Shown: positions 1,909 through 61,454 of the stretch, piece by piece
Layout: each line of letters opens with the position of its first letter
How positions within the stretch are numbered: position 1 is the first letter of the stretch
Source of the DNA: Natrinema sp. DC36
Lineage (GTDB): Archaea; Halobacteriota; Halobacteria; Halobacteriales; Natrialbaceae
NCBI RefSeq assembly: GCF_020405225.1
Contig: NZ_CP084475.1
Location: forward strand, 1-64,000
Direction of reading: 5' to 3'
DNA: 64,000 nt
Program-made: the position numbers and the translations under genes
Notes under the pieces: generated by a model
The model's database searches: none
The model's input: the letters and a program-made list of their open reading frames with translations, nothing else
What the model was told of the DNA's origin: nothing

Positions 1909-1970
1909 GTATTTAGGTGGAATCAGATCCACATATAATGTTTTTATAGTAGTAGTCCGTGTCACGTCAT

Positions 1971-32037: not shown

Positions 32038-32042
32038 GAGGC

Positions 32043-32504: not shown

Positions 32505-32549
32505 TGACTGCACCGTTGCAGGGGAGGGGTTAGAAGGTTACGCTGCGGG

Positions 32550-33752: not shown

Positions 33753-33773
33753 GATATAGAGACTTGATACCAT

Positions 33774-34159
33774 CTCGCATAAATATTCCCTTCCCCCGTG
33801 CGGGACGCTCCCGAGGTCAGATAATATCGCGTTGGCCGGGGCCGCTCAAATGTTGATGCCTATGCGGTCAGGACTGGCCTAACGGGCGCCACGTTTGGCA
33901 CTGGAAACGGACGGCCGGGCGGTCCAATAACGATGATAGACGACACTGACACGACTACATTGACCGCATCGTCGACGACGACTCGCTCGCTGGTACTTGT
34001 CGAACCGTCTCGGTCCTATCGACGAGTACGACCTCGAGCATCATGCGAAGGGGGACTCCAACGAGACGCTCTTCGTCACTTGGGGCAGCTACAAACTAGT
34101 CATCTGACGACCGCCGCCCGGTGAGACAGCCGATACGGAACGGCACGATTTCGAGCAAC
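33774..34159. other. intergenic region without a recognisable gene
   Basis: These 386 bases hold short acidic-looking readable pieces on the plus strand (for example EYDLEHHAKGDSNETLFVTW near 34023-34090) that need frame changes and do not begin with a clear start. It may be the tail of a decayed gene. I could not assign it to a family. Confidence 0.4.
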
Positions 34160-44621: not shown

Positions 44622-45740
44622 ATGGGGGATACAACTGTGACTGGAAATATACGCCGAGCAAGGAACCCCCTTACAGGCGAAAAACTCGTTGTCCGGAGTG
44701 TTATCAATGAGACAGTTGACTCAGCGCGTCTCAACGTTTTACGAGCCATGGGAAAACTCTCGAGCCCCGTGGTACAGACTGTTGTTGCCCAACAGGCCGA
44801 TATCTCCCGTCAGTCTGTCTCTAATCATCTTGCGGTTCTCCGAGACCGTGGGTTTGTCAAGGAACCTAACACAGAGATTGAGCTAACTGCTGGTGGCCTC
44901 TTGCTCTTGGATGTTATCGAGAGTTGTCTTCAGACGGTCTCGGTTGAGGAGCTATCGTCCCTGACTCGTTCCGACCATCCGATTGGCGTGTTAAGAGCAC
45001 TTGAAGGACAACCATACCGTCTGAGTGAGCTAGAATCAGCAGTAAGCAGTTCCCCGTCACGACCCACAATTGGGCGTATCATCAAGACCTTCACAGAGTA
45101 TGGCTGGAGCCAAGACAATGGGGGGAAACAGCAGATCACACCTGCCGGAACACGTGCCTTGAATGCCTATGTTGACTTGGCGACGGCAGTTGAGCAACTC
45201 ATAGAGAAAGCGCCATGGCTACAGCGCCTCCCGAAAGAAGATGCGACCTTTCCAATTCCGGAATTGGCTGACGCTGAGTTGATCATTTCTACCCCTACTC
45301 GCCCCTCTTCCGTACTTTGGACAGCTCTCAAGCTCTATGACCGACAAACAAGTCGCTTTCGGGGGTTTTGCTCTATCTTTAATCCAGTTCTGTTCCACGC
45401 CTATCGAGGATTGCTTGAACTCGGCATTGAATGTGAGGCTATCCTTGACTTGCCAACTTACGTCGAAGCCGCCGAAAACCCTCAAACCCAGTATGTGGTC
45501 CATGGCTCGACGTATAGCAACTACCAGCCCCTGGTCCTCGATCGTGCACATACGCTCGGTATCGGGATTTACGATACTCGCAAGGTCGCTATTGGAGCGT
45601 ACAATGAATCCGGTAGTGGAAAGCATATTGCGATGATTGTCACTTCTAACGAACGACTCGTCGAATGGGGAATCAACTTGTATGAGTCCTATCGCGCGCA
45701 AGCTCGATCTGCCTCTGAACTGGAGCCAAAGAGGGTATAG
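44622..45740 (+). CDS. FilR1-domain-type HTH transcriptional regulator
   Basis: A 372-residue regulator with two winged-helix segments (QQADISRQSVSNHLAVLRDR near residue 61; YRLSELESAVSSSPSRPTIG near 132) and a C-terminal ligand-binding-like domain (PELADAELIISTPTRPSSVL, then LVLDRAHTLGIGIYDTRKVA). The layout matches the methanogen FilR1/DUF1724 regulators widespread in haloarchaea. It is divergent from the P450 gene across an AT-rich 160-base promoter. It may sense a lipid-like or aromatic ligand. The ATG at 44622 is preceded by an A-rich leader. Confidence 0.7.
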   Translation: MGDTTVTGNIRRARNPLTGEKLVVRSVINETVDSARLNVLRAMGKLSSPVVQTVVAQQADISRQSVSNHLAVLRDRGFVKEPNTEIELTAGGLLLLDVIESCLQTVSVEELSSLTRSDHPIGVLRALEGQPYRLSELESAVSSSPSRPTIGRIIKTFTEYGWSQDNGGKQQITPAGTRALNAYVDLATAVEQLIEKAPWLQRLPKEDATFPIPELADAELIISTPTRPSSVLWTALKLYDRQTSRFRGFCSIFNPVLFHAYRGLLELGIECEAILDLPTYVEAAENPQTQYVVHGSTYSNYQPLVLDRAHTLGIGIYDTRKVAIGAYNESGSGKHIAMIVTSNERLVEWGINLYESYRAQARSASELEPKRV

Positions 45741-46127: not shown

Positions 46128-46409
46128 ATGGTGAAACGAACTACCACGACGACTATTTCGGTTATGCCCGCCGACGCCCTGTTCCTCAACTGGGCGACCG
46201 GCATCAACGCATCGGGGCTATTCCGCGAGGCACTCGCCGAGCAGATGGCGTATCGTGATATCGAGCGAGACAGGCTCGTCGCACTCATCGAGGAAGCACT
46301 CCGCGACGACGATCGTGACCTCGACGACCTGATCGACCAGACCTCGTGCCTCGAGGACCTCGAAAATATCCTCGACACACCAAACGTCAACTCAGTTTCC
46401 CATGAGTAA
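46128..46409 (+). CDS. small RHH-like protein, first gene of the conjugation-like operon
   Basis: A 93-residue acidic protein. MVKRTTTTTISVMPADALFL is a possible N-terminal strand, then INASGLFREALAEQMAYRDI resembles the two-helix part of ribbon-helix-helix proteins, followed by an acidic tail. RHH proteins at the head of conjugation operons commonly regulate transfer or bind the origin. An in-frame GTG at 46116 is an alternative start. It overlaps the next gene by 8 bases, so it is coupled to it. Confidence 0.5.
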   Translation: MVKRTTTTTISVMPADALFLNWATGINASGLFREALAEQMAYRDIERDRLVALIEEALRDDDRDLDDLIDQTSCLEDLENILDTPNVNSVSHE

Positions 46410-46887
46410 TCGTTCATCCCCCACAGCGACTGAATCGTCCAGTGAACACCCCACCACCAACGAGAAGTCCCCTACGTCTCGTAAAACGAGACTGCGAGTG
46501 CAGTTGCTTTACACCTCTGTTCCACCACAGCTTGTCTCACTCGCGACTGGACTCCTCTTGTTAATTGTTGCAGTAGGTCCAGCTACGGCTCAAAGCGATG
46601 TGGGAGACGTTTACTGCGGCACCGGCGTCGAGACTGGTATCGGGATTGTTTTTGGCGCTGTTGCTGGTCTCGGGCTCCCTGCAACCGGTTTCTATGTCGG
46701 TCGAGCTGGCCTCTCGTATATGCGTGCTGGTGGGAACCCTGAAAAGAAGAACCAAGCCAAAGAGAAGCTCGTAATGTCGGGTATCGGATTTGGGATCATC
46801 GTCCTCGCGCTGATCTCACCGGAACTCATCGACAAGGTCGGCAGTCAGATGGGATTCGGCTTCTCTGACTGCGTGAAACCGTTCTAA
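46402..46887 (+). CDS. VirB2-pilin-like membrane protein candidate
   Basis: A 161-residue protein with a charged head of about 45 residues, then a hydrophobic stretch ending in a signal-peptidase-like site (LLLLIVAVGPATAQ near residue 60). Two further hydrophobic segments follow (IGIVFGAVAGLGLPATGFYV and SGIGFGIIVLALISPELI). Long leader plus two closely spaced membrane helices in the mature part is the architecture of VirB2/TrbC pilins. The call rests on topology and operon position. Two Cys, near residues 70 and 157, could pair. Confidence 0.5.
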   Translation: MSNRSSPTATESSSEHPTTNEKSPTSRKTRLRVQLLYTSVPPQLVSLATGLLLLIVAVGPATAQSDVGDVYCGTGVETGIGIVFGAVAGLGLPATGFYVGRAGLSYMRAGGNPEKKNQAKEKLVMSGIGFGIIVLALISPELIDKVGSQMGFGFSDCVKPF

Positions 46888-46918
46888 TACGGCAGACAAA
46901 CCGGTTCACTGAAATCCA

Positions 46919-48673
46919 ATGACCACGTCTCGTGTGATCGTCATCGCCGTCGCGTTCCTCGCCGTAAGCGGGGGCGTTGCGAGTCTGACTGCAGATGTCG
47001 CTGCAGCTGACCCAAACTCGAGTACGGCGATTCCTGCTGACGGACCGGATTACGGTGTAAACGAAACGCGGTTCCCGCTGTTGTGGTCGGAAGACATCGA
47101 TAAGGGGGACCGCTCAAGTAAGGAGTTCACGGACACCGTTTCTTCCGACGCGGAATTTTCCACTCGGCTCGCAGGGGCGACGGATGTCCCGTTCGAAGAA
47201 CCGATTGAAGCCGTCGAAACCTGGAACAGCGGTGACGTCCAGGATTTCACCCCTGGGAATGAGAAGACGTCAGTTCATCCTAAGGGAGCACAACTCGAGG
47301 ACGGACGCTATATCAGGGATGCGTACGCGAGCATCTTCGCGGTCCAGCCGTCGACGGTGTTGCATTCAGGAAACAACTCGACACAGTATATCGCTCCAGA
47401 CGGTGAGGTCCTCGCGATAGCCGATTACCGAGTCCGTGTTCCAGATGACGATACCACTGGCTCGGTCCGCGATCAGTGGTCGATTGCTGAGACAGATATT
47501 GATAGTGTCGAACTACGGGCAGACGGTCGGATACTTGACTCCGGTAACGATCATCGCTCCACTCTCGAGTACAGTGGGCTGTCAGGGACGCAGAACCTCT
47601 CCGTAGAGGTTGCGATTTCTGTTCGCCTTCGCCATGAAATACGAACGTGCGATGATTACGACAGTGAGGAAGATTCCTGTGATGAGTCGTGGGAGACTGA
47701 AACGGAGAATGTGAGCGAACGGGTAACAGCAACCGAATCCCGTCAGACGGCCGTTACTCGGATCGACAATAGTGACGGAAAGCGCGTGACGTTCGAAAGC
47801 GACGAGAATCGTACTGGTGTCGTCGTACATCCGGGTACTACGTGGGCAGCAATCGATGTTGACAGTACCGCTCGTCTTCGGGGGAATTGGCGGTTCTACT
47901 CTGCGGGAGTAGACGGCTGGCACACGATGGTGTCCCAAACGGAAAGGGACACTACCCGGAAGAACTCATCCGTCCGCCCGGCACAAATCCATGCCGTACC
48001 GACGCAGAAACGGCCAGATATGCCAAGCGAGGCGACGGATACCGCTGAGCCACCGTTAGTTATCGAAGAAGCCTGGGGAAATGAACAAGTCGGTCCCTCC
48101 CTCCCGAACGAGATCGATATTGCGACTGTCGATCGCTATGTGAACGCAACGTCAGTCGCCGTCCAATCGGAGACGCTTCCAGCAGCGACCTTTGACGAGG
48201 TGACCGTTCACGGCATTGTCCGTGGCCAGTCGCAGACCATCTCGATCGATGGCGACGGATCCGTTCGCGAAACGAACCTCGAGTTGACGGTCCTCGAGGC
48301 GAACTCGTCAGGGGCCCGCGTTCAGGCAACTGTCACGGAGAAGGCGACCGGTGATCCAATCACAACCGGCCGGGTCGAAGTTGGGAATCAGTCCACCACC
48401 GTCAACGCTAGTGGAATGGCCGTTCTCGAACTCGAGAATCGGCCGTCTGTAGTCGTTGATGGACAGTACATTCCAACGGAGTGGTGGCGCGCGAATCAAC
48501 TGTATTCCGCAGCGGAGGACCGGGCGAAGATCCCACCGAAATATCCCGGTTTCCAGAAGATCGTTCAGTTGATTCTTGTAACACTGCTCTGGTTTCTGCC
48601 GGTCGCTCTGGCTGTCTACGGTTTCGACTACCTGTCCGGAGGCACGTTCCTCGGACTTACAGATCAACAATGA
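46919..48673 (+). CDS. large exported membrane-anchored protein of the conjugation-like operon
   Basis: A 584-residue protein. It has an N-terminal signal segment (VIVIAVAFLAVSGGVASLTA near residues 6-25), a long beta-rich extracellular region with many Asn-x-Ser/Thr sites and a disulphide-type pair CDDYDSEEDSC near 242-252, and an Ig-like segment (ATVTEKATGDPITTGRVEVG near 476). A C-terminal membrane anchor follows (ILVTLLWFLPVALAVYGFDY near 553). It likely forms the surface part of the apparatus (adhesin or mating-pair factor). No specific family recognised. Confidence 0.6.
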   Translation: MTTSRVIVIAVAFLAVSGGVASLTADVAAADPNSSTAIPADGPDYGVNETRFPLLWSEDIDKGDRSSKEFTDTVSSDAEFSTRLAGATDVPFEEPIEAVETWNSGDVQDFTPGNEKTSVHPKGAQLEDGRYIRDAYASIFAVQPSTVLHSGNNSTQYIAPDGEVLAIADYRVRVPDDDTTGSVRDQWSIAETDIDSVELRADGRILDSGNDHRSTLEYSGLSGTQNLSVEVAISVRLRHEIRTCDDYDSEEDSCDESWETETENVSERVTATESRQTAVTRIDNSDGKRVTFESDENRTGVVVHPGTTWAAIDVDSTARLRGNWRFYSAGVDGWHTMVSQTERDTTRKNSSVRPAQIHAVPTQKRPDMPSEATDTAEPPLVIEEAWGNEQVGPSLPNEIDIATVDRYVNATSVAVQSETLPAATFDEVTVHGIVRGQSQTISIDGDGSVRETNLELTVLEANSSGARVQATVTEKATGDPITTGRVEVGNQSTTVNASGMAVLELENRPSVVVDGQYIPTEWWRANQLYSAAEDRAKIPPKYPGFQKIVQLILVTLLWFLPVALAVYGFDYLSGGTFLGLTDQQ

Positions 48674-49527
48674 CAGAAAATTCCAATACGGATGGCAGTC
48701 GTATCGCTCGCAGGTCAGTCCTTGCTACCCTCGGCGTTAGTACAGCCACTCTTGCTGGCTGTGCGTCAGGGTCAGACCCCTCAAACAATAGTACAGATGG
48801 GAATGGAATCAGTACTGAAGACAGTGACGTCTTCACGTCCGTCGAGATAGCGGAGGAGAGCCTTGAGATCGAAGTTACCGATGATATGTCGGTTGAGTTC
48901 ATCAACCTCGTCGATCCAAGTGGAGAGCTGTACGATCAACAGCGTCTCGAGAACGGCGAGACCAAGACATCATTCGAAATTCTTGGCCGATATGAAGATG
49001 ACTTCTTTACTGGAAAATACGAGCTAGTCGCCCTCGATGGGGACGATCAGGTCGATACAACGACGCTCACGCTCGAGGCTAACTGTACGATCACAGATGT
49101 CCTGTGGTCGGCAGAAAATCCCGATATGGAGTGGGACAAAAACTCGCCTACTTGGGAGACATATGCGGCAGTCGTTATAGAGAACACGGGGACGATTCCA
49201 TCGTTGCTCACTGAACTCGAGTGGGCAGGTGCTCCAGTTGCTCGACTGCAATCGAAGGAATCGCAGTCATACTTTCACGAGACACGCTTACCGCCGGGGG
49301 AGACTACTGTTTATTCTAACGGGTCGGTCTATGCCACAGATGGTGCAGTTCACTCGCTGAACTGTAGTGATCTCGAGACGGAACCGATGACTGTCACAGC
49401 CGTCGTTCAAGTCGGATCAGATCCCTCATATACTCAGGATATTGAATATGGAGACGATCAATCGTGTAGTCTCACCATTGTCGATAGCGACTCTACTGGA
49501 GGTTCATCTAGCGAGGGTGAGAGTTGA
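48670..49527 (+). CDS. Tat-type lipoprotein of the conjugation-like operon
   Basis: A 285-residue exported lipoprotein. The twin-arginine motif ARRSVLATLG is near residue 13 and the lipobox LAGC near 27-30, followed by a Ser/Asn/Asp linker and two beta-rich segments (VEFINLVDPSGELYDQQRLE; VVIENTGTIPSLLTELEWAG). The start overlaps the previous stop by four bases (ATGA), and the VirB6-like gene begins on the next base after its stop. A surface or pore-lining part of the apparatus is plausible. Function unknown. Confidence 0.6.
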   Translation: MTENSNTDGSRIARRSVLATLGVSTATLAGCASGSDPSNNSTDGNGISTEDSDVFTSVEIAEESLEIEVTDDMSVEFINLVDPSGELYDQQRLENGETKTSFEILGRYEDDFFTGKYELVALDGDDQVDTTTLTLEANCTITDVLWSAENPDMEWDKNSPTWETYAAVVIENTGTIPSLLTELEWAGAPVARLQSKESQSYFHETRLPPGETTVYSNGSVYATDGAVHSLNCSDLETEPMTVTAVVQVGSDPSYTQDIEYGDDQSCSLTIVDSDSTGGSSSEGES

Positions 49528-50736
49528 ATGGGATGGCTTCAAAACGAAGTTGAGACTGCAATTGAGAACGTCATCGAGGATTTCACCGATGCGCTTCTCG
49601 GCCTTGTTAATGACATTTATGAAGCGATCTTAGCTCCGATCGTCGGCGTTCCAACCCCCAAATCAGATTCGGGGTATATGGTTGTTGGAACCCCGGACAA
49701 TGCGCCATGGGAGAGTCTGTACCAAGACGTATACCTCTCATACATCATGCCGCTGGCGATCATGCTGTCGGTTATCGCCTTTGCGTTTGTTGGACTCCGG
49801 GCAGGTTCGATCAGTGAGTACCGACGAAAACAGCTCCTGCGACGACTCGGTCTCGTATTTATGGGGACTTTTGTTTGGTTTCCACTTGTCTCGATTCCGT
49901 TGCAGTTCATCGACGCAGTCGGTATGACGATTGCCCCAATTGACGAGATGTCGGCAGGACTCGGCGGCCTCATCCAATCCTCGCTTGGGGGCGTGTTCAC
50001 TATTCTTGCGATGGTCGTCATAACGAACTTCTTCTTAGTTATCGCAGGATTTGTCGTCGCTCTTCGCTGGATTGCACTCTGCGTCTTGACGCCAATCATG
50101 CCGCTACTGGGCGTCCTTTGGTCGATGGAAGTCTGGCCATTTAGTCCCGCGGCTAACATGGCACGCCGAGCTTCAGGAATCTATCCAGGCTTAGTCCTCG
50201 CTGGGATTCCGCCAGCTATTCTCTTCCGAATCGGCTGGGAGGTTGGCGGTCTCGAAACATCTGTTAAGGGCCTCTTTTCGTTGTTCATCGGGTTGACGCT
50301 GATTCCTGCAGCGATTATCACGATGATCATGACGGTGTACTGGAGCAGCCCAGCAATACGGACCGTCGCACAGAAGGGCGTCTCGGCAACGAATCCTGCA
50401 GCAGCCGCATCCGGGGCTGCGAAGGCAAAACGCACCTCTGGAAAGGCTGTCCGGGGTGCTCGAAACGTCCATCGAGGATACGCGAACAACCAGGTTGGCG
50501 CAGTAACAAAGAGTGGCCAGACGACGCTCGGAGGTGGCAACTCGAAAGCCTATCAGCTCGGATCATCAGCCCGCTCAACGAAGGCTCACGCTGGGCGGTA
50601 CAGCAACCTGCGGAAGTCGAAGACGGGCCGTATGCGAGACAAAGCCGCCGATGACGCTCGTAAAGCCACACAGAAGACATCGACTCGAGCAAAGCGCGGG
50701 CTCAAGAACACGAAACAGAAGGTCTCACGGTGGTGA
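49528..50736 (+). CDS. VirB6/TrbL-like polytopic membrane protein with basic tail
   Basis: A 402-residue protein with about six hydrophobic segments (MPLAIMLSVIAFAFVGLRAG, GVFTILAMVVITNFFLVIAG, WIALCVLTPIMPLLGVLWSM, LFSLFIGLTLIPAAIITMIM and others) in residues 60-275. A C-terminal tail of about 125 residues is rich in Lys, Arg, Ala and Ser (AKAKRTSGKAVRGARNVHRG). VirB6/TrbL proteins form the membrane channel of type IV secretion systems. The strongly basic tail is unusual in an acidic-proteome organism and may touch DNA. The call rests on topology and position. Confidence 0.6.
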   Translation: MGWLQNEVETAIENVIEDFTDALLGLVNDIYEAILAPIVGVPTPKSDSGYMVVGTPDNAPWESLYQDVYLSYIMPLAIMLSVIAFAFVGLRAGSISEYRRKQLLRRLGLVFMGTFVWFPLVSIPLQFIDAVGMTIAPIDEMSAGLGGLIQSSLGGVFTILAMVVITNFFLVIAGFVVALRWIALCVLTPIMPLLGVLWSMEVWPFSPAANMARRASGIYPGLVLAGIPPAILFRIGWEVGGLETSVKGLFSLFIGLTLIPAAIITMIMTVYWSSPAIRTVAQKGVSATNPAAAASGAAKAKRTSGKAVRGARNVHRGYANNQVGAVTKSGQTTLGGGNSKAYQLGSSARSTKAHAGRYSNLRKSKTGRMRDKAADDARKATQKTSTRAKRGLKNTKQKVSRW

Positions 50737-50742
50737 TTCCGT

Positions 50743-53700
50743 ATGAGTACGAATACAGCTGATAGCGAGTATAGTACGAGAAAGATCCATCAGTCATTGG
50801 GCGGTACTACGGCGTTCTTCCGAGGGTACACGATTGGTGAACTCATGCTGTTTCTCGCAGTGGCGTTCATCACTGTCGTTGCAGCGACGTTCGTCCCTGC
50901 TGCACTGACGATCCCGGTACTGGGATTCGGGATCATGGTCACGATCCTCCTGTTCTTGCTCCATAAGGTGAAGCCCAGATACCTCTGGCTCACCGAGTGG
51001 CTCGCTGCCCGCTTCGGCTGGGCGATCAAGAACAAGGAGTATACCCACGGTGGTGAGGATAACAGCGAGGTTCGGTATCTGACTCGTTTACAACGGGTGT
51101 ACCCCCACGCTGTCGAACGAACGGATGGTGCACTCGTCAGAGCGATGCAAGTCGAGCCAGCGAACATGGCCCTCGAGGACGACGATGCATGGGCGAAGGC
51201 TGTCCAGTCGCTTTCTGAGTTCGTTAATTCGACCGTGGACTTCCCGGTGAAGATCTATATCACCAGCCGAGAGGTCGACGATGACGATGTCGTCCGTGCA
51301 CACCAGGACCGACTCGGTGACGCTGATGTTCGGTCACGGCCGGTCTTGAAGCGGCTTCTCGAGAAATACGTCACCGCGAATACGACCGAAAGCGGAGACA
51401 TCGACTCAGAGACGACAACGATTCGCGAGTACTACCTCATCACTGCAGTGAACGATGACGATGTCGAACAGTTCGACAAGACGGGTGACAGCGTCCTCGC
51501 CTATCTCGCAGAGATGCCCATGGTAGGTCGATTCTTCGATCGGTTCCAGACCGATGATCTGACTGAGCCTGAGCGTGAGCGACTCAAAGAAGAGCAACTC
51601 GAGTCACGACTCACACAACTCCGACGCGGCGGCTCGTCGCTCTATCAGTGTTCAGTTAGTCCGGTTGACGCATACGACCTCGCTCGGATCACGAAGGAGT
51701 ACTGGTCGTGTCAGCCCGAGAAGTATGCTGATATCACGGATGCACTCGGTACGTTCCCGGTCGTCTCCCACGGGATTAGCGATGGTGTTCCAGCAACTCC
51801 CGATCCCAATGACGTCCTCGATGCAATGGACGAGCAGACCAGTACGCCGGAATCGGCCTCGGACGATCGTACCGAAGATAGTATCGACGAGGATCTCTCG
51901 ATTTCCTCCGGCGATCGGTTGCCAGACACGTCGACGATGCACCAGTCGGTTATCGCCCCGACGACGGTCGATTGGGAGACGACCTACGCCGTGATCAACG
52001 ACGAGACGTACGTCCGTACGTTCTGGGTCGAACAGTTCCCCGAGGAACCCTCAGATGGCCTCCTCGAGCGTCTATTGCTCGAGACCGACCTTCAGACGGA
52101 TATCAGCGTTCACCTCGACCCGTTTGACAGCCAGTCGGCCCAAGACATGATGGCGGACTGGATCTCGGATTTGAAGATCAATCAGCACGACTCGGACAGC
52201 CTCCAGTCCGAGGACCTTCAGGACGATATCGATCAGGCGAAATACATGCGGTCGCTCGTTCGTGCGAACAAAGCGTCGTTCTACCGCGGTGGCGTGTTCA
52301 TTCGCCTCGCCGCTGACAGCGAGCAAGCGCTCGACAATCAGACGACTCGCTTGCGGTCGATCGTCAAGGATGCCCCGGCGAACTGTACGCTCAAGGTTGC
52401 GAGCCGGTGGCAGGAGCGCGGCCTCGCAACAGTGTCACCGCTCGGGACGAACGAACTCGGTCGCGATCGGATGTCCACACTGACGAATCAGGCGATCGGC
52501 GCGATGTTCCCGTTCTCGTCGAACTACCAGATGATGGACGACGGCATCGAGTACGGCTATCACGGCCACAACGGCTCCCCCATCCGAATCAATCCATGGG
52601 AACTCGAGACTGGACATAGCGAACTCGTCGTCGGAATGCCGGGCGCCGGGAAAACGTTCGGCGATATCATGCGCCACCTGCGGATGATGAAGCGACGCAA
52701 CGACACGATGCTCGTCCTCGTCGATCCAGTCGGCGGCTTTCGTGGTATCGCGGACGCTCTGAACGCGAAAACGATCACCGTCGGCGGCGACACGAAGCTG
52801 AACCCGCTCGAGATCCGAGAGACGCCACAGCACGTCCTCGAGTCGAGCGATGGCATCTCTCCCCTCTCGGCGAAGAAGGATGAGGTCTACGCCATTCTCG
52901 AGAACTTCCTCGACGCTCGTGATATCGAACTCGGAGCCGAGACGGGTGTCCTCTCGTACGTCATTGACGAGGCCTACCGACAAGCAGGCATCATCGAGGG
53001 TGATGTCTCGACGCATACCTCGAAGCACTCACCGACGATGCAAGACGTCCATCGGATTCTCTGTGATATCGCCGAGCATCCAGATGAGCACAATATTGCG
53101 GCATCCGAATCCGCTCGCGAGCGGGCCGCACAATACGCAGACGAACTCGCAATCGCGTTTCAGCCATTCCGAGAGGGCGGTGCCTACGAAAATCTCTCAC
53201 ACCGCTCGGAGATCAATATCCTCGAGGGAGACAACAAGGTCGTCTATATCGATCTCGGTCAGATCGAGGGCAGCGCATCAGGGATCGACCGCCAGACGTT
53301 CCTGATGCAACTCCTGCTCTCGACGATCTATCAGCAGGCGAAGAACACCCAACGGAACGTCGAACTCGCGATCGACGAAGCGCACTACCTCTTCGAGGAC
53401 CAGGCCAACCTCGACTTTCTCGAGACGGCGTTCCGTCACCAGCGCCACGCTGGCCTTCGAATGGTCCTCCTCTCGCAGACAGCCCAAGAGTTCTATGAGA
53501 CCGAGCAGGCCGAGAAGATTATCGGAATGTGTCCAATCAAGGTCTTTCACAAACTGCCCGACCTAGACGACGGGACAGCCGACAAAATCGGCCTCACAGA
53601 GGAACAACGTTGGTACGTTCGACGGGCTGATGCAGGGAAGGAAGACCTCGGATACAGTCAATCACTCGTTCGCGTCGAAGAACACGGAACGTATCCGCTG

Positions 53701-54024
53701 CACGTCGTCGCCGACGACTTCGAGAAGCGCGTCATCAACTACGAACCCGACGACCGGACATACATCCAGCAGGCGATTAGCGACCAGCCTGAAGAACTCG
53801 TCGACTTCGAACGGTTCGTGGAAAATGAGGCGCGGATGAACGCACTCACCAATCGCTACGGACTCTGCGAGGCAGAGGCGACTCGAATTCTCGATCGTGG
53901 CTTCACTGAAGACGAAATCATCGAGGCGATCGTCGCGACCGCGCGGCAGAGCGACACAGTAGAGACATCCGCTCTCGCCGACGGCGGTGACGACGGCGTT
54001 ACGGTTCGACGAGGAGGTGAATGA
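50743..54024 (+). CDS. VirB4-like conjugation ATPase with VirB3-like N-terminus
   Basis: A 1093-residue ATPase. Residues about 25-80 hold two membrane segments (TIGELMLFLAVAFITVVAAT; AALTIPVLGFGIMVTILLFL) like VirB3/PrgI. A long VirB4 N-domain follows, then the HerA-type motor: Walker A GMPGAGKTFGDIM near residues 630-642, Walker B NVELAIDEAHYLFEDQ near 873-888, and LLSQTAQEF near 908. It should energise pilus/apparatus assembly. It starts 6 bases after the VirB6-like gene and overlaps the next by four. A fused VirB3-VirB4 is known from some bacterial systems. Confidence 0.8.
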   Translation: MSTNTADSEYSTRKIHQSLGGTTAFFRGYTIGELMLFLAVAFITVVAATFVPAALTIPVLGFGIMVTILLFLLHKVKPRYLWLTEWLAARFGWAIKNKEYTHGGEDNSEVRYLTRLQRVYPHAVERTDGALVRAMQVEPANMALEDDDAWAKAVQSLSEFVNSTVDFPVKIYITSREVDDDDVVRAHQDRLGDADVRSRPVLKRLLEKYVTANTTESGDIDSETTTIREYYLITAVNDDDVEQFDKTGDSVLAYLAEMPMVGRFFDRFQTDDLTEPERERLKEEQLESRLTQLRRGGSSLYQCSVSPVDAYDLARITKEYWSCQPEKYADITDALGTFPVVSHGISDGVPATPDPNDVLDAMDEQTSTPESASDDRTEDSIDEDLSISSGDRLPDTSTMHQSVIAPTTVDWETTYAVINDETYVRTFWVEQFPEEPSDGLLERLLLETDLQTDISVHLDPFDSQSAQDMMADWISDLKINQHDSDSLQSEDLQDDIDQAKYMRSLVRANKASFYRGGVFIRLAADSEQALDNQTTRLRSIVKDAPANCTLKVASRWQERGLATVSPLGTNELGRDRMSTLTNQAIGAMFPFSSNYQMMDDGIEYGYHGHNGSPIRINPWELETGHSELVVGMPGAGKTFGDIMRHLRMMKRRNDTMLVLVDPVGGFRGIADALNAKTITVGGDTKLNPLEIRETPQHVLESSDGISPLSAKKDEVYAILENFLDARDIELGAETGVLSYVIDEAYRQAGIIEGDVSTHTSKHSPTMQDVHRILCDIAEHPDEHNIAASESARERAAQYADELAIAFQPFREGGAYENLSHRSEINILEGDNKVVYIDLGQIEGSASGIDRQTFLMQLLLSTIYQQAKNTQRNVELAIDEAHYLFEDQANLDFLETAFRHQRHAGLRMVLLSQTAQEFYETEQAEKIIGMCPIKVFHKLPDLDDGTADKIGLTEEQRWYVRRADAGKEDLGYSQSLVRVEEHGTYPLHVVADDFEKRVINYEPDDRTYIQQAISDQPEELVDFERFVENEARMNALTNRYGLCEAEATRILDRGFTEDEIIEAIVATARQSDTVETSALADGGDDGVTVRRGGE

Positions 54025-55154
54025 CGATGTTTAGCTGGCTTTTCAATGACGGTCCAGAGTACGACGCAACACAGGTAGAGTTCGAAGAGCCGTTCGTCCA
54101 GCACCCGGAGAGTGCGCCCGGTATTCTGCTCAGAATCCGCCCCTTCAAAGAGAATCAGGGCATCGTCGACGGCGCCGGACTACTCCAGTCGGTCCACGAC
54201 GTGACGACGAACTTCCGAGAGAAGAACACGAGCGACCATCACACCTTCGAGGTCTGGTTCGACGAGGGGAAGATCAAGTTCTACATGCACGCTGCAACCG
54301 AGGCAGCCGCCGACAAGTTCCGCCGCCGCGTCGGGAATAACTACGCTAACAGCGAGGTATTCCCCGTCGAGGATGGCTACGCCTTCCCCGTCATCGAGCC
54401 CGATGAGTACGTCGCTGGCGCATGGCTGGAGATGGAGAAGCTTCCCTACTACCCGATTCGCCATCACAACAGCGAGGGCTGGGAAACCGACCCATACGGC
54501 GAGATCACGAGCGAGATGCTCTCGCTCGACGAGAGCAAGGTTGTCACGCAGGTCGTCTTTCGACCGGCGAAGCAGTCCTGGACGGACGGCGACCAGTTCA
54601 AGCATAACAGCGTTGATGATCTGGCCCACGCGCTCCGCCAGGGAACTTCGGTCGGGTGGCTGAATCCTCGGACGCGACCAGCGAGCGAGAAGGACAAGCA
54701 GGCGGCCAAAACCATCGAACAGCAGCGCGGCGAACAGGCGTTCCACGTCAACATCCGTATCGTCGCAATCTCAGCGGACAAAGACGAAGCTCAAGCCCGT
54801 GCGCACGGCGTCGCCGGGATGTTCAGAAAGTACTACAACGCGATCACTGAGCAGGGTCTCGACGATATGCCAGTGTACCATCGGAAAGAAGGGAAGCGTG
54901 CGAGTCAACTCCGCCAGCACGTCACTCGGATGGCCGACCGCGAGTGGACCGACCGGCGCATGATCATGACCGTCGACGAACTCGCCGGCGTCGCACACAT
55001 CCCGAACAACGAAATCGAGACGCCAAACATCGACTGGCGATACACGCAACGTGGTGACCGCGTTCCCGCCGACGCCGTTCAGTACGAGCGACCCACGACC
55101 AGTGACGGTCTCCAGAAGCGCCAGGCTGGACAGGGAGGGCAGGATGGTGTTTGA
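54021..55154 (+). CDS. conjugation operon protein, partner of the two ATPases
   Basis: A 377-residue acidic protein without clear membrane segments. It has an alternating strand/helix pattern (GILLRIRPFKENQGIVDGAG; HHTFEVWFDEGKIKFYMHAA; HVNIRIVAISADKDEAQARA) that resembles the N-terminal domain that precedes the motor in some TraD/HerA-like proteins. It overlaps VirB4 by four bases and the TraD-like gene by 11 bases, so it is expressed in a fixed ratio with both. I suggest it is a split-off domain of the coupling ATPase. Confidence 0.55.
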   Translation: MTMFSWLFNDGPEYDATQVEFEEPFVQHPESAPGILLRIRPFKENQGIVDGAGLLQSVHDVTTNFREKNTSDHHTFEVWFDEGKIKFYMHAATEAAADKFRRRVGNNYANSEVFPVEDGYAFPVIEPDEYVAGAWLEMEKLPYYPIRHHNSEGWETDPYGEITSEMLSLDESKVVTQVVFRPAKQSWTDGDQFKHNSVDDLAHALRQGTSVGWLNPRTRPASEKDKQAAKTIEQQRGEQAFHVNIRIVAISADKDEAQARAHGVAGMFRKYYNAITEQGLDDMPVYHRKEGKRASQLRQHVTRMADREWTDRRMIMTVDELAGVAHIPNNEIETPNIDWRYTQRGDRVPADAVQYERPTTSDGLQKRQAGQGGQDGV

Positions 55155-58100
55155 ACGATTCTTCGGTCGTGGCAACGGGGATCAGTCGGCACGCTCTGAT
55201 GCAGGCTCATCTTCGAAAGAACCGACAGAAGTCGAAGAGGCGAGTACCGATCTCCAGACCGAACCAGACGAACGTGCAAACGTGAATGTAACGTCTGATC
55301 CAGCACCAGAACCGCAGTCTCGAGTCAATAAAACGTATGAAATAACCGAACAGGACACTACCTACGTCGGTGGAAAATCAGTCATTACCGAAACAGCCAG
55401 TGAGGGCACTGTCGCGGGATTGTACGTCCGCGAGATGTTCGAATCAGGTGCCACAACATCGCCCGCGCCGCTCTGGATCGGCTACGACGAAGATGCGCAA
55501 CGTGGGTTCCGCGAAGCACCGCTCCGGTTCGAGTCGCTCTTCCGGCATATCTGGATCACGGGCACTACCGGCTACGGGAAAACAACGGAACTGCTGAACA
55601 TGATGGTCCAGTGGGCGTATTCAGGATATGGATTCGTCTACTTCGACCCGAAAGGACGAGACTCTCGCGAACTCCTGCGGAAACTCCCCGAAGACCGTCT
55701 TGACGACATCGTCTGGATCGAGCCTGGATCGTCAGAACACGATAAGACGGTCGGGCTGAACTTCCTCGAGGTTCCCGACTGTGATACAGAGGAAGAGCGC
55801 GAAAACGAGATTGAGAATCGCATCGAGAATCTGAAGGCGATCTTCGATACGGACGAGTACTGGGGCATCAATATGGAGTCGATCACCGAGTCAATGGGAC
55901 GAGCGATGATGCAGTCCGAGAGACCGTTCTCAGTGATCGACATGTACTTCACGCTGTTGAACGCCGAGCGGCGTGAAGAGTTTGCTCTCGATGTCGACGA
56001 TCCGTATGTGCAGGAGTTCTGTCTCGAAATCGCACGGATGGATGACGAGACAGTCCGGCCACTCCTGAAGCGAATCAAATCCTGGGTCGAAAACTCGGTC
56101 ATCCGACGGATCATCTCCCACCGCGAGAGCACGATCGATTTCCGCGATATTATCGACAACGACCGAATCGTTATCGTCCGCACGCCCGTCGAGAATACGG
56201 ACATCAAGAAGATGGTCACACTCGGCGTGATGCGGAATCTCTGGAGTGCAATTCAGCAGCGGTCGTATGAACGCGATACCGACCCAGATCCGTATTTCGT
56301 CCTCTGCGACGAGTTCGACGACATCGCCAGCGATAATCTCGATATCGAGTCGATGCTCGCTCGTGCTCGGTCGATGCGGCTCTCCGTGACGCTCGCCTCT
56401 CAGTACCCCTCACAGTTCGACGAGGACACGCTCAAGGCGATGCAGAACAACTGCGACAACCTCATTGCGTTCTCAGTGAATGACGTAGACGACGCCCAAC
56501 TCCTGATGAAGCGGTTCCGAGACTACACTGCAGAGGACCTGATCTCGACTGACCAGTATCAGGTCTGGACGAAACTGCCTCTCGATGGCGGTCGGTACTC
56601 AGAACCCGTCCTCCTCCGCTCGTTCCCGCCGTATCCACCACTACGGTCGGCTGATGCGGTCGACGACATCATCGAGCAGAGTTTGGACCGCTACGGGACC
56701 AAGCCGCTGACCGATGCTGAAATCATGCAGAATCTCATCTACAGCGACGCCAACGAGGCAGCGAACCCGACGAAGATACTGGATGAAACGATGGCGGAGT
56801 CGATTCGTGCAGTACAGATTCGGGAGGGAGTACGGGCGGAAAACGGCTGGGTGGATGTCACTACCGTTGACGAGGAACTCTCGATCCGCCTTGAGAACAC
56901 CCAGCCTGACATCGACTATGCGTACGAAGACCTTCCGGACGTGCGTGAAGCATCGCAATTGCTCGAAGTCGATCTGAAGGACGACGACATCGTTGCTCGC
57001 CTCTCCGACGAGGGGGAAACGACGGTACAGCCTGAAACGGGAGCTGTTAGATCGGCAGGGGGAACGAGCCATGATGCAGTCCTCATGGATACCGAAACGG
57101 CGCTTACCGAACGCGGATTCATCGTCGATATCCTCGTACAGGACGGGAGCGAGCAACCCGACGCCACCGCGACCCACCCAGACCACGACGTCGTCTTCAA
57201 CATCGAGGCCGAGACGACGACACCGGACCGGCCCGCGAAGGTTTTGCAGAACTTCAAACGGGCCTGCGAAGCCGACCGGATACCGCTCTTTGTCGTCCGT
57301 CCTAGTGACTCCGATACGAAGTGGGCGAAACGAATCGAGAACATCCTCTCGCCGCCACTGCGAGAACGGGCGGACGGCACTGAGCAGTTCTATAATCGCG
57401 ACGAGATCGTGATGTTCGGCGGTGGCGCGACGGCCCACGGTGGAGTAACCGCTGTTCGACCACGTACTGCGGACACAAATCGAACTGTCTGGACACGCGA
57501 TAACGGCGAGCGCGTGCTTTCAGACGGCGAGACGGAGTTCACCCGTGTTCCAGATGAGGGGGAACTCTCCAAAGACGGTGTTCCGGCCTACTATAGCCAC
57601 GATCGAGAAAACGGCCAGTATACCGTCCACAAACCAGGAGAGACCTGCGTCTATGACTCGAAAGACGACTTCGAAGAGGATTGGACGCCGATCAAACGAC
57701 CGTTCATCCCCGATATCGAGTTGCCGAATGCAGACTATTCGCGTGACAGCTACATCGTGCTGATTCTGCCAGCTGACGGTAGTCCACTGATTTTCCAGCA
57801 TGGAGAAACGTATGTGCTGTCCGAGAACCCCGACTTCGAGGAGCTATGGCCCGACGATTCCAACGGTGATTCAGGCCGAGTTGAGGTTTCGACGATTCGT
57901 CGTGGTGGAAATCCTCCGTCAGATGGTGAGGCATCTGATTCGCCATCGAAAGATGAGACGGTGGACATCGACCCGGACGGCGACGGTGTTGAAGCGTTCA
58001 CGGCAATGTACGTCAGGCAGGCCGATGGAGCCAAAGTTCCACAGGATGATCTGTTTCAGGCGTACGCTACCTGGACTGACCAGCACGATATCGACGGGAC

Positions 58101-58239
58101 AACCAAAGGCTGGTTCACCCGGAAGCTACGGAACGTCGTCGACCTCGAGACCGACCGGTCCAGAGTAGACGGTGACCGCGTACAGTTCTACGTCGGACTC
58201 TCCCTGACAGAAGAGGGGCAGACACTCCTCGATCAATGA
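55144..58239 (+). CDS. TraD/VirD4-like coupling ATPase with C-terminal nuclease-like domain
   Basis: A 1031-residue protein. After an acidic head, the motor has Walker A WITGTTGYGKTTELLNM near residues 137-153, Walker B YFVLCDEFDDIASDN near 383-397 and LASQYPSQF near 418. A domain near 645-720 (ALTERGFIVDILVQDGSEQP, then HDVVFNIEAETTT, KVLQNFKRA) looks like a PD-(D/E)xK restriction-like fold. Further beta-rich repeats follow (HKPGETCVYDSKDDF; FQHGETYVLSENPDFEE). It would couple DNA to the secretion channel. ATG at 55144 is chosen; earlier in-frame codons overlap the previous gene. Confidence 0.75.
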   Translation: MVFERFFGRGNGDQSARSDAGSSSKEPTEVEEASTDLQTEPDERANVNVTSDPAPEPQSRVNKTYEITEQDTTYVGGKSVITETASEGTVAGLYVREMFESGATTSPAPLWIGYDEDAQRGFREAPLRFESLFRHIWITGTTGYGKTTELLNMMVQWAYSGYGFVYFDPKGRDSRELLRKLPEDRLDDIVWIEPGSSEHDKTVGLNFLEVPDCDTEEERENEIENRIENLKAIFDTDEYWGINMESITESMGRAMMQSERPFSVIDMYFTLLNAERREEFALDVDDPYVQEFCLEIARMDDETVRPLLKRIKSWVENSVIRRIISHRESTIDFRDIIDNDRIVIVRTPVENTDIKKMVTLGVMRNLWSAIQQRSYERDTDPDPYFVLCDEFDDIASDNLDIESMLARARSMRLSVTLASQYPSQFDEDTLKAMQNNCDNLIAFSVNDVDDAQLLMKRFRDYTAEDLISTDQYQVWTKLPLDGGRYSEPVLLRSFPPYPPLRSADAVDDIIEQSLDRYGTKPLTDAEIMQNLIYSDANEAANPTKILDETMAESIRAVQIREGVRAENGWVDVTTVDEELSIRLENTQPDIDYAYEDLPDVREASQLLEVDLKDDDIVARLSDEGETTVQPETGAVRSAGGTSHDAVLMDTETALTERGFIVDILVQDGSEQPDATATHPDHDVVFNIEAETTTPDRPAKVLQNFKRACEADRIPLFVVRPSDSDTKWAKRIENILSPPLRERADGTEQFYNRDEIVMFGGGATAHGGVTAVRPRTADTNRTVWTRDNGERVLSDGETEFTRVPDEGELSKDGVPAYYSHDRENGQYTVHKPGETCVYDSKDDFEEDWTPIKRPFIPDIELPNADYSRDSYIVLILPADGSPLIFQHGETYVLSENPDFEELWPDDSNGDSGRVEVSTIRRGGNPPSDGEASDSPSKDETVDIDPDGDGVEAFTAMYVRQADGAKVPQDDLFQAYATWTDQHDIDGTTKGWFTRKLRNVVDLETDRSRVDGDRVQFYVGLSLTEEGQTLLDQ

Positions 58240-58606
58240 CATCTGACATAACTATAATGTACTGTAATAGCAATTCTAAGGGTATCCTTGCTCGAGGGCA
58301 TCGAGTCTCCCATTCTCTCCGAAATAGCCCCTCACACAGCCAGAATCCAACATCTGAATTATCTGTCCACGCAGACTGGATTTCCAAGGAAATTCTATGG
58401 ACGGTGCTGTCCACGCAGAACCGCATGACGGGAGTGCTGTCCACGCAAAATAACCCGCCAAAACCAACTAGTATACACTGGGTTCCATCCGCAGAACGAT
58501 GCGGGGACAGGGAGATCGGGCTGCCTATCGATTGTCAGCAGTTGTCTCGAGATTATGATATAGTTTGTTCGGAGGACTCAATGAGTGAACCTCGGAGTGA
58601 TCAACG
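58240..58606. other. iteron-bearing intergenic region
   Basis: 367 bases between the coupling ATPase and the primase-like gene with no supported gene. It contains three CTGTCCACGCA repeats and an inverted GGACGGTGCTGTCC. It is a candidate transfer or replication origin. Confidence 0.45.
58363..58449. repeat. three CTGTCCACGCA direct repeats (iteron-like)
   Basis: CTGTCCACGCAGA at 58363-58375 and 58407-58419 and CTGTCCACGCAAA at 58437-58449, in direct orientation, spaced 44 and 30 bases apart. TGGACGGTGCTGTCCA (58399-58414) adds an inverted form around the middle copy. The last two copies are preceded by AGTG or GGTG. Confidence 0.7.
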
Positions 58607-59875
58607 ATGAGTTCTGACACCTTAATCGACACAGCAGCGCTGCCAGCTAGCTTACGAGAACGTGAGCAGTGGGTATGCTGGAAAGAAGAAGATCGGGATG
58701 GCAAACCGACGAAGATACCGGTGACACCAGAGACGGGAGCATTCGCCTCGTCGACCGATCCAGAGACGTGGGACAGTTTCGAGACAGCACTCGAGTACGC
58801 CGAAACAGGGAACGCTACTGGCGTTGGGTTCGTCTTTACCGATGACGATCCTGTCGTTGGCGTGGACCTCGATGACTGCCGGGATACTGAAACCGGGGAT
58901 GTCGACGACGCGGCGCTGGACATCATCGAGCGACTCGACTCCTATACGGAGATTTCTCCGTCAGGTACTGGATTTCATGTGCTCATCGAGGGAGAACTCC
59001 CAGATGGGCGGAACCGCCGTGGCAGTATCGAACTGTACGACACTGCTCGGTTTTTCACTGTTACCGGCGACCGCCTCGAGGACACGCCAACTCGCGTTGC
59101 ACGTCGGCAGGATGCGCTGGTAGCGATCCATCGTGAGTACGTTCAAGACTCTGAACCGGATCCAGAACACGAATCTGGAGACTATAGTTCCAGTGAGAAG
59201 CAAGCAGCGACGGGCAGTGCAGCCGATACCAACGTCGACCTCAAGGACGAGGAACTGCTCGAGCGAGCACGGAACGCATCGAACAGCGAGAAGTTCGAGC
59301 GGTTGTGGCGTGGCTCGACTGCTGGTTACGAGAGTCAGTCAGAGGCGGACATGGCACTGTGCTGTCTGCTGGCATTCTGGACTGGTGGTGACCACCAAAC
59401 GATGGACCGGCTCTTCCGCCAATCAGGACTGCTCCGAGACAAGTGGGATGAAGTCCACTACGCTGACGGCTCTACGTATGGCGAAAAGACTATCGAGCGA
59501 GCAATTGCGAGTACCTCCGAGTTCTACGATCCCGACACTCGAGATACGTCAACCGAATCTGTTCCCAGAACGAGCGAGTCGTCGACCAGTGCTAGCCGTG
59601 ACGACTCGGAGCAGAATCGGAATCATGCGTATCTGGTTGAGAAGAACCGACTGTTGACTGACCGCGTCGACGAACTCGAGGCCACGCTCGAACAGAAAAC
59701 TGAACGTATCGATCGCCTCGAGACAACGATCGAAGATCTCAGAACCGAACTTTCAGAGCGTAACCGAGAGATCGAGCAGGCTCGAGAAGAACAAGCCGGG
59801 ACAACGTCCGACTGTGATACGGCTTCAGAGACATCCTCTCTATGGGGACGATTATTCGGCGATAGGTCCAAGTAA
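58607..59875 (+). CDS. primase-polymerase-like protein with C-terminal coiled coil
   Basis: A 422-residue protein. The N-terminal 190 residues resemble the primase-polymerase domain of phage/plasmid replication proteins (QWVCWKEEDRDGKPTKIPVT at 20-39; acidic motif VGVDLDDC near 85-92; GTGFHVLIEG near 121-130; then YDTARFFTVTGDRL). Residues 225-310 are a helical domain (FERLWRGSTAGYESQSEADM; AFWTGGDHQTMDRLFRQSGL) common after such domains. A coiled coil (LLTDRVDELEATLEQKTERI) ends the protein. No helicase is fused. It could prime replication or transfer of this element. Confidence 0.75.
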   Translation: MSSDTLIDTAALPASLREREQWVCWKEEDRDGKPTKIPVTPETGAFASSTDPETWDSFETALEYAETGNATGVGFVFTDDDPVVGVDLDDCRDTETGDVDDAALDIIERLDSYTEISPSGTGFHVLIEGELPDGRNRRGSIELYDTARFFTVTGDRLEDTPTRVARRQDALVAIHREYVQDSEPDPEHESGDYSSSEKQAATGSAADTNVDLKDEELLERARNASNSEKFERLWRGSTAGYESQSEADMALCCLLAFWTGGDHQTMDRLFRQSGLLRDKWDEVHYADGSTYGEKTIERAIASTSEFYDPDTRDTSTESVPRTSESSTSASRDDSEQNRNHAYLVEKNRLLTDRVDELEATLEQKTERIDRLETTIEDLRTELSERNREIEQAREEQAGTTSDCDTASETSSLWGRLFGDRSK

Positions 59876-60027: not shown

Positions 60028-60546
60028 CTAGGATTTGGTTTCGTGGCGCTCCTTGCAGTTACACCGGGAATGCGCATCGGCGAACTCGACAGCGTACGAG
60101 TGAACTTCCTCAGCTAGCTCGTGCATCCCAACTGCCAGATCTCGACCGGGTCGATCAATATCGTAATAGATCCGGGCACGATGTTCCGATCGGAACGCAT
60201 CAATCCGGGCAGGCACACCCGTATCAGAGAATACCCCGCGACTCTCGATGTCCTCGAACACTTGCTCATGCTTCCGGAAATCAGACGATTCAGCAGCAGT
60301 CTGATCCACCAAGTAGAACTGGAACGACCGTTCGATGGCGTTGAACGACAACTCGACAATACTGACGTAGTTATTTGTCCCGCTGCGTAATTGACGGCAC
60401 GTTCCTAGCATCGCACATGCTTTCCCCAGTTGTACGTCAGCATCCGTTTGCTGCCACGACAACGAGTCTTGAACAGGGCCTGTTTCCTCGTCGGCTAACA
60501 ACGACTCAACGTGCTCGACAGCGTCAACGACGTCTTCAAGTCCCAT
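60028..60546 (-). CDS. HEPN-domain protein (toxin-like)
   Basis: A 172-residue helical protein paralogous to the HEPN at 2.66 kb (shared SIVELSFNAIERSFQFYLVD, and GVFSDTGVPARIDAFRSEHR). The active-site region reads AFRSEHRARIYYDIDRPGRD; the usual Rx4-6H spacing is not obvious. It pairs with the upstream MNT gene, overlapping it by 11 bases. With MNT it forms a type II (or type VII-like) toxin-antitoxin module that could stabilise the element. C-terminal Cys pair CNC may bind metal or be incidental. Confidence 0.7.
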   Translation of the reverse strand: MGLEDVVDAVEHVESLLADEETGPVQDSLSWQQTDADVQLGKACAMLGTCRQLRSGTNNYVSIVELSFNAIERSFQFYLVDQTAAESSDFRKHEQVFEDIESRGVFSDTGVPARIDAFRSEHRARIYYDIDRPGRDLAVGMHELAEEVHSYAVEFADAHSRCNCKERHETKS

Positions 60547-61225
60547 CCGCGAACACCTCCTGTTTCACCGCGTCGAGAACTGGGGTGTCGTGAAGCGTGA
60601 TCCCTTCCACGAGCACGTCACGGATTCGGTCGTGCGTTACTGCTGAGTCGCGCGTCTCAACGACGATGTGCGGTTCGAATCGATCTCCATCGAACTGTTC
60701 CGACGTGATATCTTCCTCAATGTCGTGAGCCGCTCGTTGCGCCGCCATTCGACCATCATCGACAACGACGAATACGTCGATATCGCTTGCCCGGTCGGCG
60801 TCACCACGAGCGACACTCCCGAACAACACAATCGCTGCATGATCACCGATACGGTCTATAAGCCGATTCCGAACAGTTCGCACTGGGTCATGGAACTCGG
60901 ATTGCGGAATTGTGGTAACAGGATCATCACTGTGAACGAATCTTTCCGGGTTGATCTGTACGGCATTTGACCTGCCGTCGCGATCAACGTGAATTATACC
61001 GAGGGCTTCGAGGGAGAGAACAGCGGCATTCACGTTCGACATTCCTCTTTCCGTCAACCGGTGGAGTTCTCGGTTCGAGAAGGCTGTATCTGGATTATCT
61101 GCGAGTACGTGGAGGATGTCAGTCGCTGCGCGGTGTCGGAACGCCTCGCGGTCACCGAGCGGAATCGGGAGGCAAACGTACGTTCCCTCACATCCATCCG
61201 ATGCCCGAACGGTATCACGGTTCAT
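60536..61225 (-). CDS. HTH-fused MNT nucleotidyltransferase (antitoxin-like)
   Basis: A 229-residue protein with a winged helix (ATDILHVLADNPDTAFSNRE then LHRLTERGMSNVNAAVLSLE, residues 29-70) and an MNT domain with GSVARGDADRASDIDVFVVV near 134-153. It is a paralogue of the 1.97 kb gene. I chose the ATG at 61225 (MNRDTVRAS), matching that paralogue, although 33 in-frame codons precede it. A perfect 16-bp palindrome covers this start codon, pointing to self-repression through the HTH. Stop overlaps the HEPN start. Confidence 0.8.
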   Translation of the reverse strand: MNRDTVRASDGCEGTYVCLPIPLGDREAFRHRAATDILHVLADNPDTAFSNRELHRLTERGMSNVNAAVLSLEALGIIHVDRDGRSNAVQINPERFVHSDDPVTTIPQSEFHDPVRTVRNRLIDRIGDHAAIVLFGSVARGDADRASDIDVFVVVDDGRMAAQRAAHDIEEDITSEQFDGDRFEPHIVVETRDSAVTHDRIRDVLVEGITLHDTPVLDAVKQEVFADGT

Positions 61226-61232
61226 GAACCGT
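61217..61232. promoter_or_regulatory. 16-bp palindrome over the MNT start codon
   Basis: ACGGTTCATGAACCGT is its own reverse complement and contains the ATG of the MNT gene. It is a candidate operator for the HTH-MNT/HEPN complex. Confidence 0.5.
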
Positions 61233-61454
61233 AATGCGGTTCGGTCGCTATTAAATGTTCCGTCCACGTGCACTACTTCAGGTATGTTCTTCGAACCGGT
61301 GATCGGTCGATGATACATAGACACCCTGTAATTGTCGTTTGTTCGATATCCGTGTCGAGGACGTGAGGATTATTTTACGACATGTCTGTGTGAGTGTCTC
61401 GGACTACGTCGGGGTTGGACTGGAGGTGACGCTCGAGGAGATAAGATATCTCGA

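Follow-up and report, generated by a model that had tools for sequence, protein, structure and literature searches.

A plasmid-borne type IV secretion operon of Natrinema sp. DC36 with a candidate DNA-handling module in its VirD4 coupling protein

The stretch of Natrinema sp. DC36 DNA analysed here (the window, 64,000 nucleotides) represents the first 64 kb of a 162-kb contig, C4, in a genome of 5.1 Mb and seven contigs. Orc1/Cdc6 genes at 134433 and 142908 of C4 and a ParA gene at 158-976 identify the contig as a plasmid or plasmid-like replicon. Between 46128 and 58239 the window contains an operon encoding eight proteins on one strand, followed by short repeats (iterons) and a primase-polymerase-like gene (Table 1). 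A first-pass annotation made from the sequence alone had described a type IV secretion/conjugation-like operon, and family matches and synteny bore this out for each component that it named; the operon very probably encodes a conjugation-type type IV secretion system (T4SS). The T4SS itself is of a known kind, and its DNA-handling module is a new variation. The positions and the close packing reported for the eight genes were confirmed by their open reading frames, the largest intergenic gap being 31 bases, between the VirB2 and exported-protein genes. The trimmed start of the Tat (twin-arginine translocation) lipoprotein gene, at 48670, gave a 4-base overlap with the stop of the exported-protein gene, and that of virD4, at 55144, an 11-base overlap with the partner gene. 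The iteron-like region and primase-like gene annotated behind the operon were recovered as three TGTCCACGCA repeats and a match to PF22763 (3e-32); an open reading frame at 58236-58610 that spans the repeats is probably not a gene.

Table 1. Features of the T4SS operon and its surroundings (positions in the window)
Feature	Position	Strand	Evidence or remarks
HVO_A0261/FilR1-type winged-helix regulator	44622..45740	+	PF25213 1e-22, PF08350 1e-13
Ribbon-helix-helix (RHH)-like head gene, 93 aa	46128..46409	+	Ka/Ks 0.04-0.22; present in many loci
VirB2-like T4SS pilin, three hydrophobic segments	46402..46887	+	PF18895 8e-9, hydropathy
Exported C-terminally anchored surface protein, 584 aa	46919..48673	+	Sec-type signal; transmembrane (TM) segment 548-566
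Tat lipoprotein, 285 aa	48670..49527	+	invariant RR and LAGC lipobox (alignment)
VirB6/TrbL-like channel protein, six predicted TM segments	49528..50736	+	PF19590 3e-11, hydropathy
VirB4-like ATPase	50743..54024	+	NF045971, NF045975, TIGR00929; TM 25-43, 55-73
Partner protein, without TM segment	54021..55154	+	N-terminal fusion to VirD4 in two relatives
VirD4/TraD-like coupling protein, 1031 aa	55144..58239	+	PF12696, PF10412, PF02534
VirD4 ATPase region, aa 90-520	55411..56703	+	invariant Walker A GTTGYGKTT region, DEFDD
VirD4 nuclease-like domain, aa 630-735	57031..57348	+	motif H..Q..E.PD..A..P..E-x-E.T..P..N
VirD4 C-terminal D5/P4-primase-type winged helix, aa 940-1031	57961..58236	+	sub-cut-off PF03288, TIGR01613
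Iterons TGTCCACGCA, three copies	58364..58449	+	starts 58364, 58408, 58438; spacing 44, 30
Conserved block AAAACCAACTAGTATA	58460..58475	+	about 26 bases past last iteron start
Primase-polymerase-like gene, NrS-1 type helix-bundle domain	58607..59875	+	PF22763 3e-32

Searched against profiles, as the first-pass annotation had proposed, the VirB2 pilin (PF18895) and VirB6 (PF19590, TrbL_3/VirB6) exceeded the Pfam gathering cut-offs and the TraD-like VirD4 those of three coupling-protein families (PF12696, PF10412 and PF02534), whereas the matches of VirB4 to the VirB4 families CD1110 (NF045971, 3e-50), Mbov_0397 (NF045975, 1e-43) and TIGR00929 (9e-16) scored under the equivalog cut-offs. The VirB4 families matched come from mobile elements of Clostridioides and Mycoplasma. 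The two N-terminal TM segments of VirB4 possibly correspond to a fused VirB3/PrgI-like part; other groups of haloarchaea (loci L145, L146, L149-L151 and L062) encode the N-terminal and ATPase halves of VirB4 in two separate genes. Neither ATPase matched HerA (PF01935) or NurA at E 0.1, and a HerA/NurA repair helicase reading, the alternative raised with the original annotation, was rejected. Pfam held no relative of the exported protein or the Tat lipoprotein, in line with the annotated lack of recognised bacterial counterparts for the surface components. An AlphaFold2 model of the exported protein predicted Ig/FnIII-like beta domains at about residues 162-280 and 450-540 (local predicted local distance difference test (pLDDT) score 75-89, overall 49); Foldseek listed FnIII/Ig-type domains, none at E <= 0.001, and PDB sequences gave nothing useful. 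Relatives of the exported protein were found in all T4SS loci, with identity down to 26%. Both surface proteins accompany VirB4 even at distant T4SS loci of haloarchaea and hence belong to the core of this archaeal machine.

The gene order VirB2-exported protein-lipoprotein-VirB6-VirB4-partner-VirD4 is kept in about 50 loci, mostly plasmid-borne, from Natrinema, Natrialba, Halorussus, Halobacterium, Halostella, Salinibaculum, Haloarchaeobius, Halostagnicola and others, which confirms the synteny on haloarchaeal plasmids that had been predicted. VirB4 relatives (E <= 0.001) occurred in 166 of 242 Halobacteria genomes. The viral contigs searched contained no relatives, leaving a viral origin unsupported. 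The host genome carries three copies of the operon (contigs C4, C2 and C3) with VirB4 proteins 91-96% identical; in the pairwise comparisons made, each of the nine genes had a Ka/Ks of 0.04-0.32, and the copies are under purifying selection. The head gene evolves fast, is absent or diverged in several relatives and gave no match in a family search. The C3 copy and that of Natrinema salsiterrestre (L088) are 92-98% identical to the window until about 52800-53600, inside virB4, and past this point 65-85% identical or unalignable, with another winged helix and other repeats. This break shows that channel and DNA handling recombine as separate modules. Contig C3 also encodes, at 31960-33930, a fourth VirB4-like ATPase that is only distantly related (31% identity; L004, L014), and for this reason the host genome may contain a second type of T4SS.

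The partner protein had no TM segment, no family match and no useful hit among PDB sequences. In plasmid pHGLR3 of Haloferax gibbonsii a single 1306-residue frame comprises the partner, the VirD4 ATPase and the nuclease-like domain, in this order, and a 2441-residue frame of Halorubrum salinarum pHAR01 has the same partner-ATPase-nuclease-like order. Because these are one chain in both species, the partner is the separated N-terminal domain of the coupling protein, and not a protein with a function of its own as first annotated. A relationship to the N-terminal domain of VirB4 was rejected, profile-profile comparison giving no signal. Two giant coupling-protein frames, L098:8794-16116 (2441 residues) and L152:3-8294 (at least 2764 residues), combine partner, ATPase and nuclease-like domain with a long unassigned tail. 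Hydropathy indicated no TM segment in VirD4. In its nuclease-like domain the residues H, Q, D, E-x-E, P and N are conserved among 20 non-redundant sequences. A low-confidence model suggests a PD-(D/E)xK-like nuclease fold, its best part following the alpha-beta-beta-beta-alpha-beta order of these nucleases, and the top Foldseek matches were VRR_NUC (probability 0.98, E 0.04) and the Holliday junction resolvase Hjc (0.94, E 0.19); Pfam returned a single weak AHJR-like match (E 0.021). The last 90 or so residues of VirD4 matched PF03288 (best 7.9e-6) and TIGR01613 (best 1.1e-4) in nine of nine members, under the cut-offs.

No match to the relaxase families PF03432, PF08751, PF03389 and PF02486 was found in the whole genome, each control being positive, and the Haloarcula relaxase protein used as query found none in the genome in a search without a positive control. 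Given that neither a relaxase nor a VirB1/VirB8 homologue turned up, 'complete', the term originally applied to the machine, is too strong. Haloarcula plasmids share the five channel genes and encode behind them a pair of RHH proteins, one of which is NikA-like (PF21983, 1e-5, just under cut-off), a relaxase exceeding the PF03432 cut-off, and a coupling protein that is TrwB-like (PF10412, 3e-30) and lacks the nuclease domain. The window operon has the partner gene between virB4 and virD4, and not a NikA-like RHH protein and MobA/VirD2-type relaxase, and the partner and VirD4-nuclease of the window type occupy exactly the position that the relaxase has in the Haloarcula branch. Across the 242 genomes, PF03432 relaxases occurred in 19 and the nuclease-like domain in 120, nearly always within long frames and often a few kb from VirB4. 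Window-type VirB4 loci have the nuclease fusion without an adjacent relaxase, and Haloarcula-type loci the PF03432 relaxase without the fusion: the relaxase lay about 1.2 kb from VirB4 in 15 of 16 Haloarcula-type copies and the fusion accompanied 26 of 28 window-type copies, the exceptions being near contig ends, in a tally made by hand from loci that share ancestry and offered as a description only. The MobA/VirD2-type relaxase with NikA-like neighbours is located in the T4SS operon of Haloarcula marismortui pNG500 (L100:14095-14850) and also in L102 and L103, in contrast to recent papers that deny recognisable archaeal relaxases.

The region that separates virD4 from the primase-polymerase gene contains three or four short repeats, placed at constant distances from the near-invariant block CCAACTAGTATA; in 16 aligned loci the block AAAACCAACTAGTATA was near-invariant. 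Repeats stand at matching positions in 37 loci with lineage-specific sequence, common within one plasmid and different between plasmids (TGTCCACGCA, TGTTCAGGGC/T, TGTCCAGGGT, TGTCCGGGGT). Among 27 plasmids, repeat distance tracked the winged-helix distance of VirD4 (Mantel r 0.665); the corresponding r was 0.05 for VirB4, 0.20 for the partner, 0.18 for the ATPase, 0.17 for the nuclease and 0.22 for the primase, with Mantel p values that are rough because the loci share ancestry. Most window-type loci have the primase-polymerase gene behind the iterons, and the succession of winged-helix coupling protein, repeats (of other sequences again) and primase-polymerase gene recurs in 12 loci of the wider haloarchaeal family. 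Three-copy arrays were near shuffle expectation, so the recurrence across loci weighs more than any one array. Judged from sequence, the repeats are probably part of a transfer (or replication) origin tied to the C-terminus of VirD4.

Taken as a whole, we somewhat favour the interpretation that the locus encodes a conjugative T4SS with a VirB4 near the MPF_FATA type (MPF, mating pair formation), in which VirD4 replaces the relaxosome. VirB2, the exported protein, the Tat lipoprotein, VirB6 and VirB4 would form a pilus and a channel across the single membrane and S-layer, and VirD4 with its split N-terminal domain would act as a soluble motor. The winged helix is proposed to bind the iterons behind its own gene, as an oriT- or clt-like site, where the nuclease-like domain may cut or process DNA. 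The VirD4 ATPase would then feed DNA, single- or double-stranded, into the VirB4/VirB6 channel; after transfer, synthesis of the second strand may be primed by the primase-polymerase. That the coupling protein of most haloarchaeal systems is an all-in-one relaxosome, joining motor, nuclease domain and origin-reading winged helix for a relaxase-free start, is a tentative extension that we consider possible but short of probable.

Several results count against this view of VirD4. The nuclease-like model has a mean pLDDT of 44 and no Foldseek match reaching E 0.001, no sequence family confirms the domain, and PDB sequences gave nothing useful. Asp and Glu-x-Glu are conserved, but Glu stands at the usual Lys of PD-(D/E)xK enzymes, which makes nuclease activity uncertain. 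One branch of window-type loci (L049, L052-L055) has the nuclease domain without winged helix and primase. Intergenic flanks co-vary with the repeats nearly as strongly as the winged helix (0.57-0.61), and linkage therefore explains part of the signal, winged helix and repeats being co-inherited as a cassette. On the supporting side, the winged helix kept 0.57 when all other segments and the flanks were controlled for, and the flanks dropped to 0.05-0.10.

Within a conjugative T4SS, iterons and primase-polymerase might instead constitute a replication origin, the winged helix serving to link transfer with replication or partition. Winged helices of the D5/P4 type and primase-polymerases of the NrS-1 type are indeed replication proteins, and iterons beside a primase gene resemble an ori; however, the contig has Orc1/Cdc6 and ParA genes of its own, the iteron-linked winged helix sits in the coupling protein and the primase barely co-varies with the repeats (r 0.22), and we regard this explanation as rather unlikely. 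Another unlikely, if serious, contender is a relaxase of a new family or supplied in trans that escaped detection, the nuclease-like domain being a dead fold for DNA binding only. The absence of four families with positive controls and the exact occupation of the Haloarcula relaxase slot by partner and VirD4-nuclease argue against it, whereas the Glu in the nuclease-like motif would fit a dead fold; Guglielmini et al. (2011, PMC3158045), who found many archaeal VirB4 with coupling proteins and few relaxases, suspected unknown archaeal relaxases.

The system might also not send the plasmid at all, but be domesticated, deliver proteins or import DNA in the manner of Ced/Ted. This would agree with the MOB-suite labelling of nearly all carriers as non-mobilizable, with the VirB2, VirB4 and VirB6 homologues of Ced/Ted (PMC9905601) and with the interpretation of relaxase-less T4SS as protein exporters (PMC3158045). 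We nevertheless consider it improbable, given that the operon is plasmid-borne with three diverging copies in one genome, has a VirD4-type coupling protein with linked iterons and primase, and has a relaxase in its sister branch. A plasmid-vesicle system comparable to Halorubrum lacusprofundi pR1SE, in which a VirB4-like ATPase (ORF25) and large surface proteins are encoded on the vesicle plasmids, is highly improbable and was rejected: the paper describing it found the vesicle proteins to have no similarity to conjugation proteins (PMC10818511), whereas pilin, VirB6, VirB4 and VirD4 are all present in the window.

Upstream of the operon, the HVO_A0261/FilR1-type protein is likely a local regulator; it is also found 5' of the C3 and Natrinema salsiterrestre copies, with neighbours 88-89% identical, and is adjoined by a cytochrome P450-like gene (43103-44461, identified by eye). 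A catabolic block at 10069-33773, with GC above the rest of the window, contains genes named by sequence reading as acyl-CoA dehydrogenase, CoA ligases, 2-oxo acid dehydrogenase-like subunits and a branched-chain amino acid-type ABC transporter. At 60028-61324 and at 1959-3168, a gene with a nucleotidyltransferase domain is paired with a small partner, both pairs resembling HEPN/MNT-type toxin-antitoxin systems. An Ssb-like OB-fold protein is encoded 3' of the operon at 62075-62956 (PF21473, 2e-4, under cut-off), and a SOSS-B-like gene is also present near the pNG500 operon.

The locus offers a testable answer to the scarcity of relaxases among archaeal pairs of VirB4 and coupling protein, noted since at least 2011 (PMC3158045), with a coupling protein carrying nuclease-like and DNA-reading domains in the relaxase position of the sister branch; it also provides candidate transfer origins for haloarchaeal vectors. 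The machine had been called poorly described. As such it is not unknown, since pNG500, of the sister branch, was counted as conjugative in 2011, the sole such plasmid among archaea in that set (Guglielmini et al., PMC3158045); for the coupling-protein architecture found here we encountered no description in a search that left subscription papers and preprints outside its scope. In the pNG500 operon the order from VirB2 through the exported protein, Tat lipoprotein and VirB6 to VirB4 is shared, with VirB4 45% identical, but the operon continues with a pair of NikA-like RHH proteins, a relaxase of family PF03432 and a coupling protein resembling TrwB, and no partner, nuclease fusion or primase was found in the pNG500-type loci examined. 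Archaea belong within MPF_FATA (PMC3158045, PMC12102498), to which the window VirB4 is linked, by family matches only, through its best matches CD1110 and Mbov_0397. In contrast to MPF_FATA systems of monoderm bacteria, the window operon showed no VirB1/VirB8 or relaxase and has two archaeal surface proteins; it also has a VirB2-type pilin, which FATA systems are said to lack (PMC12102498). A 2025 review covers archaeal systems from Sulfolobus and Thermococcus only and notes that classic archaeal conjugative plasmids have no known relaxase (PMC12857230). Thermococcus pT33-3 and the Sulfolobus conjugative plasmids, compared here by description, likewise combine VirB4 and VirD4 homologues without a relaxase, but neither the full operon nor the VirD4 nuclease/winged-helix architecture is described for them (PMC12857230). 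The Ced/Ted import systems are chromosomal, whereas the window operon is plasmid-borne and includes a coupling protein.

The closest system in principle would be TraB of Streptomyces. Its repeat recognition operates through a winged helix. TraB forms assemblies on 8-bp repeats and transports double-stranded DNA with no T4SS involved, so that, as proposed for the window locus, a motor recognises short plasmid repeats (clt) and no relaxase is needed (PMC4170104). Unlike this FtsK homologue, which acts without any T4SS, the window locus has VirB2, VirB4 and VirB6 together with the nuclease-like domain; if the proposed mechanism is true, haloarchaeal conjugation would start in a way that unites a T4SS with a motor that recognises repeats, comparable to TraB.

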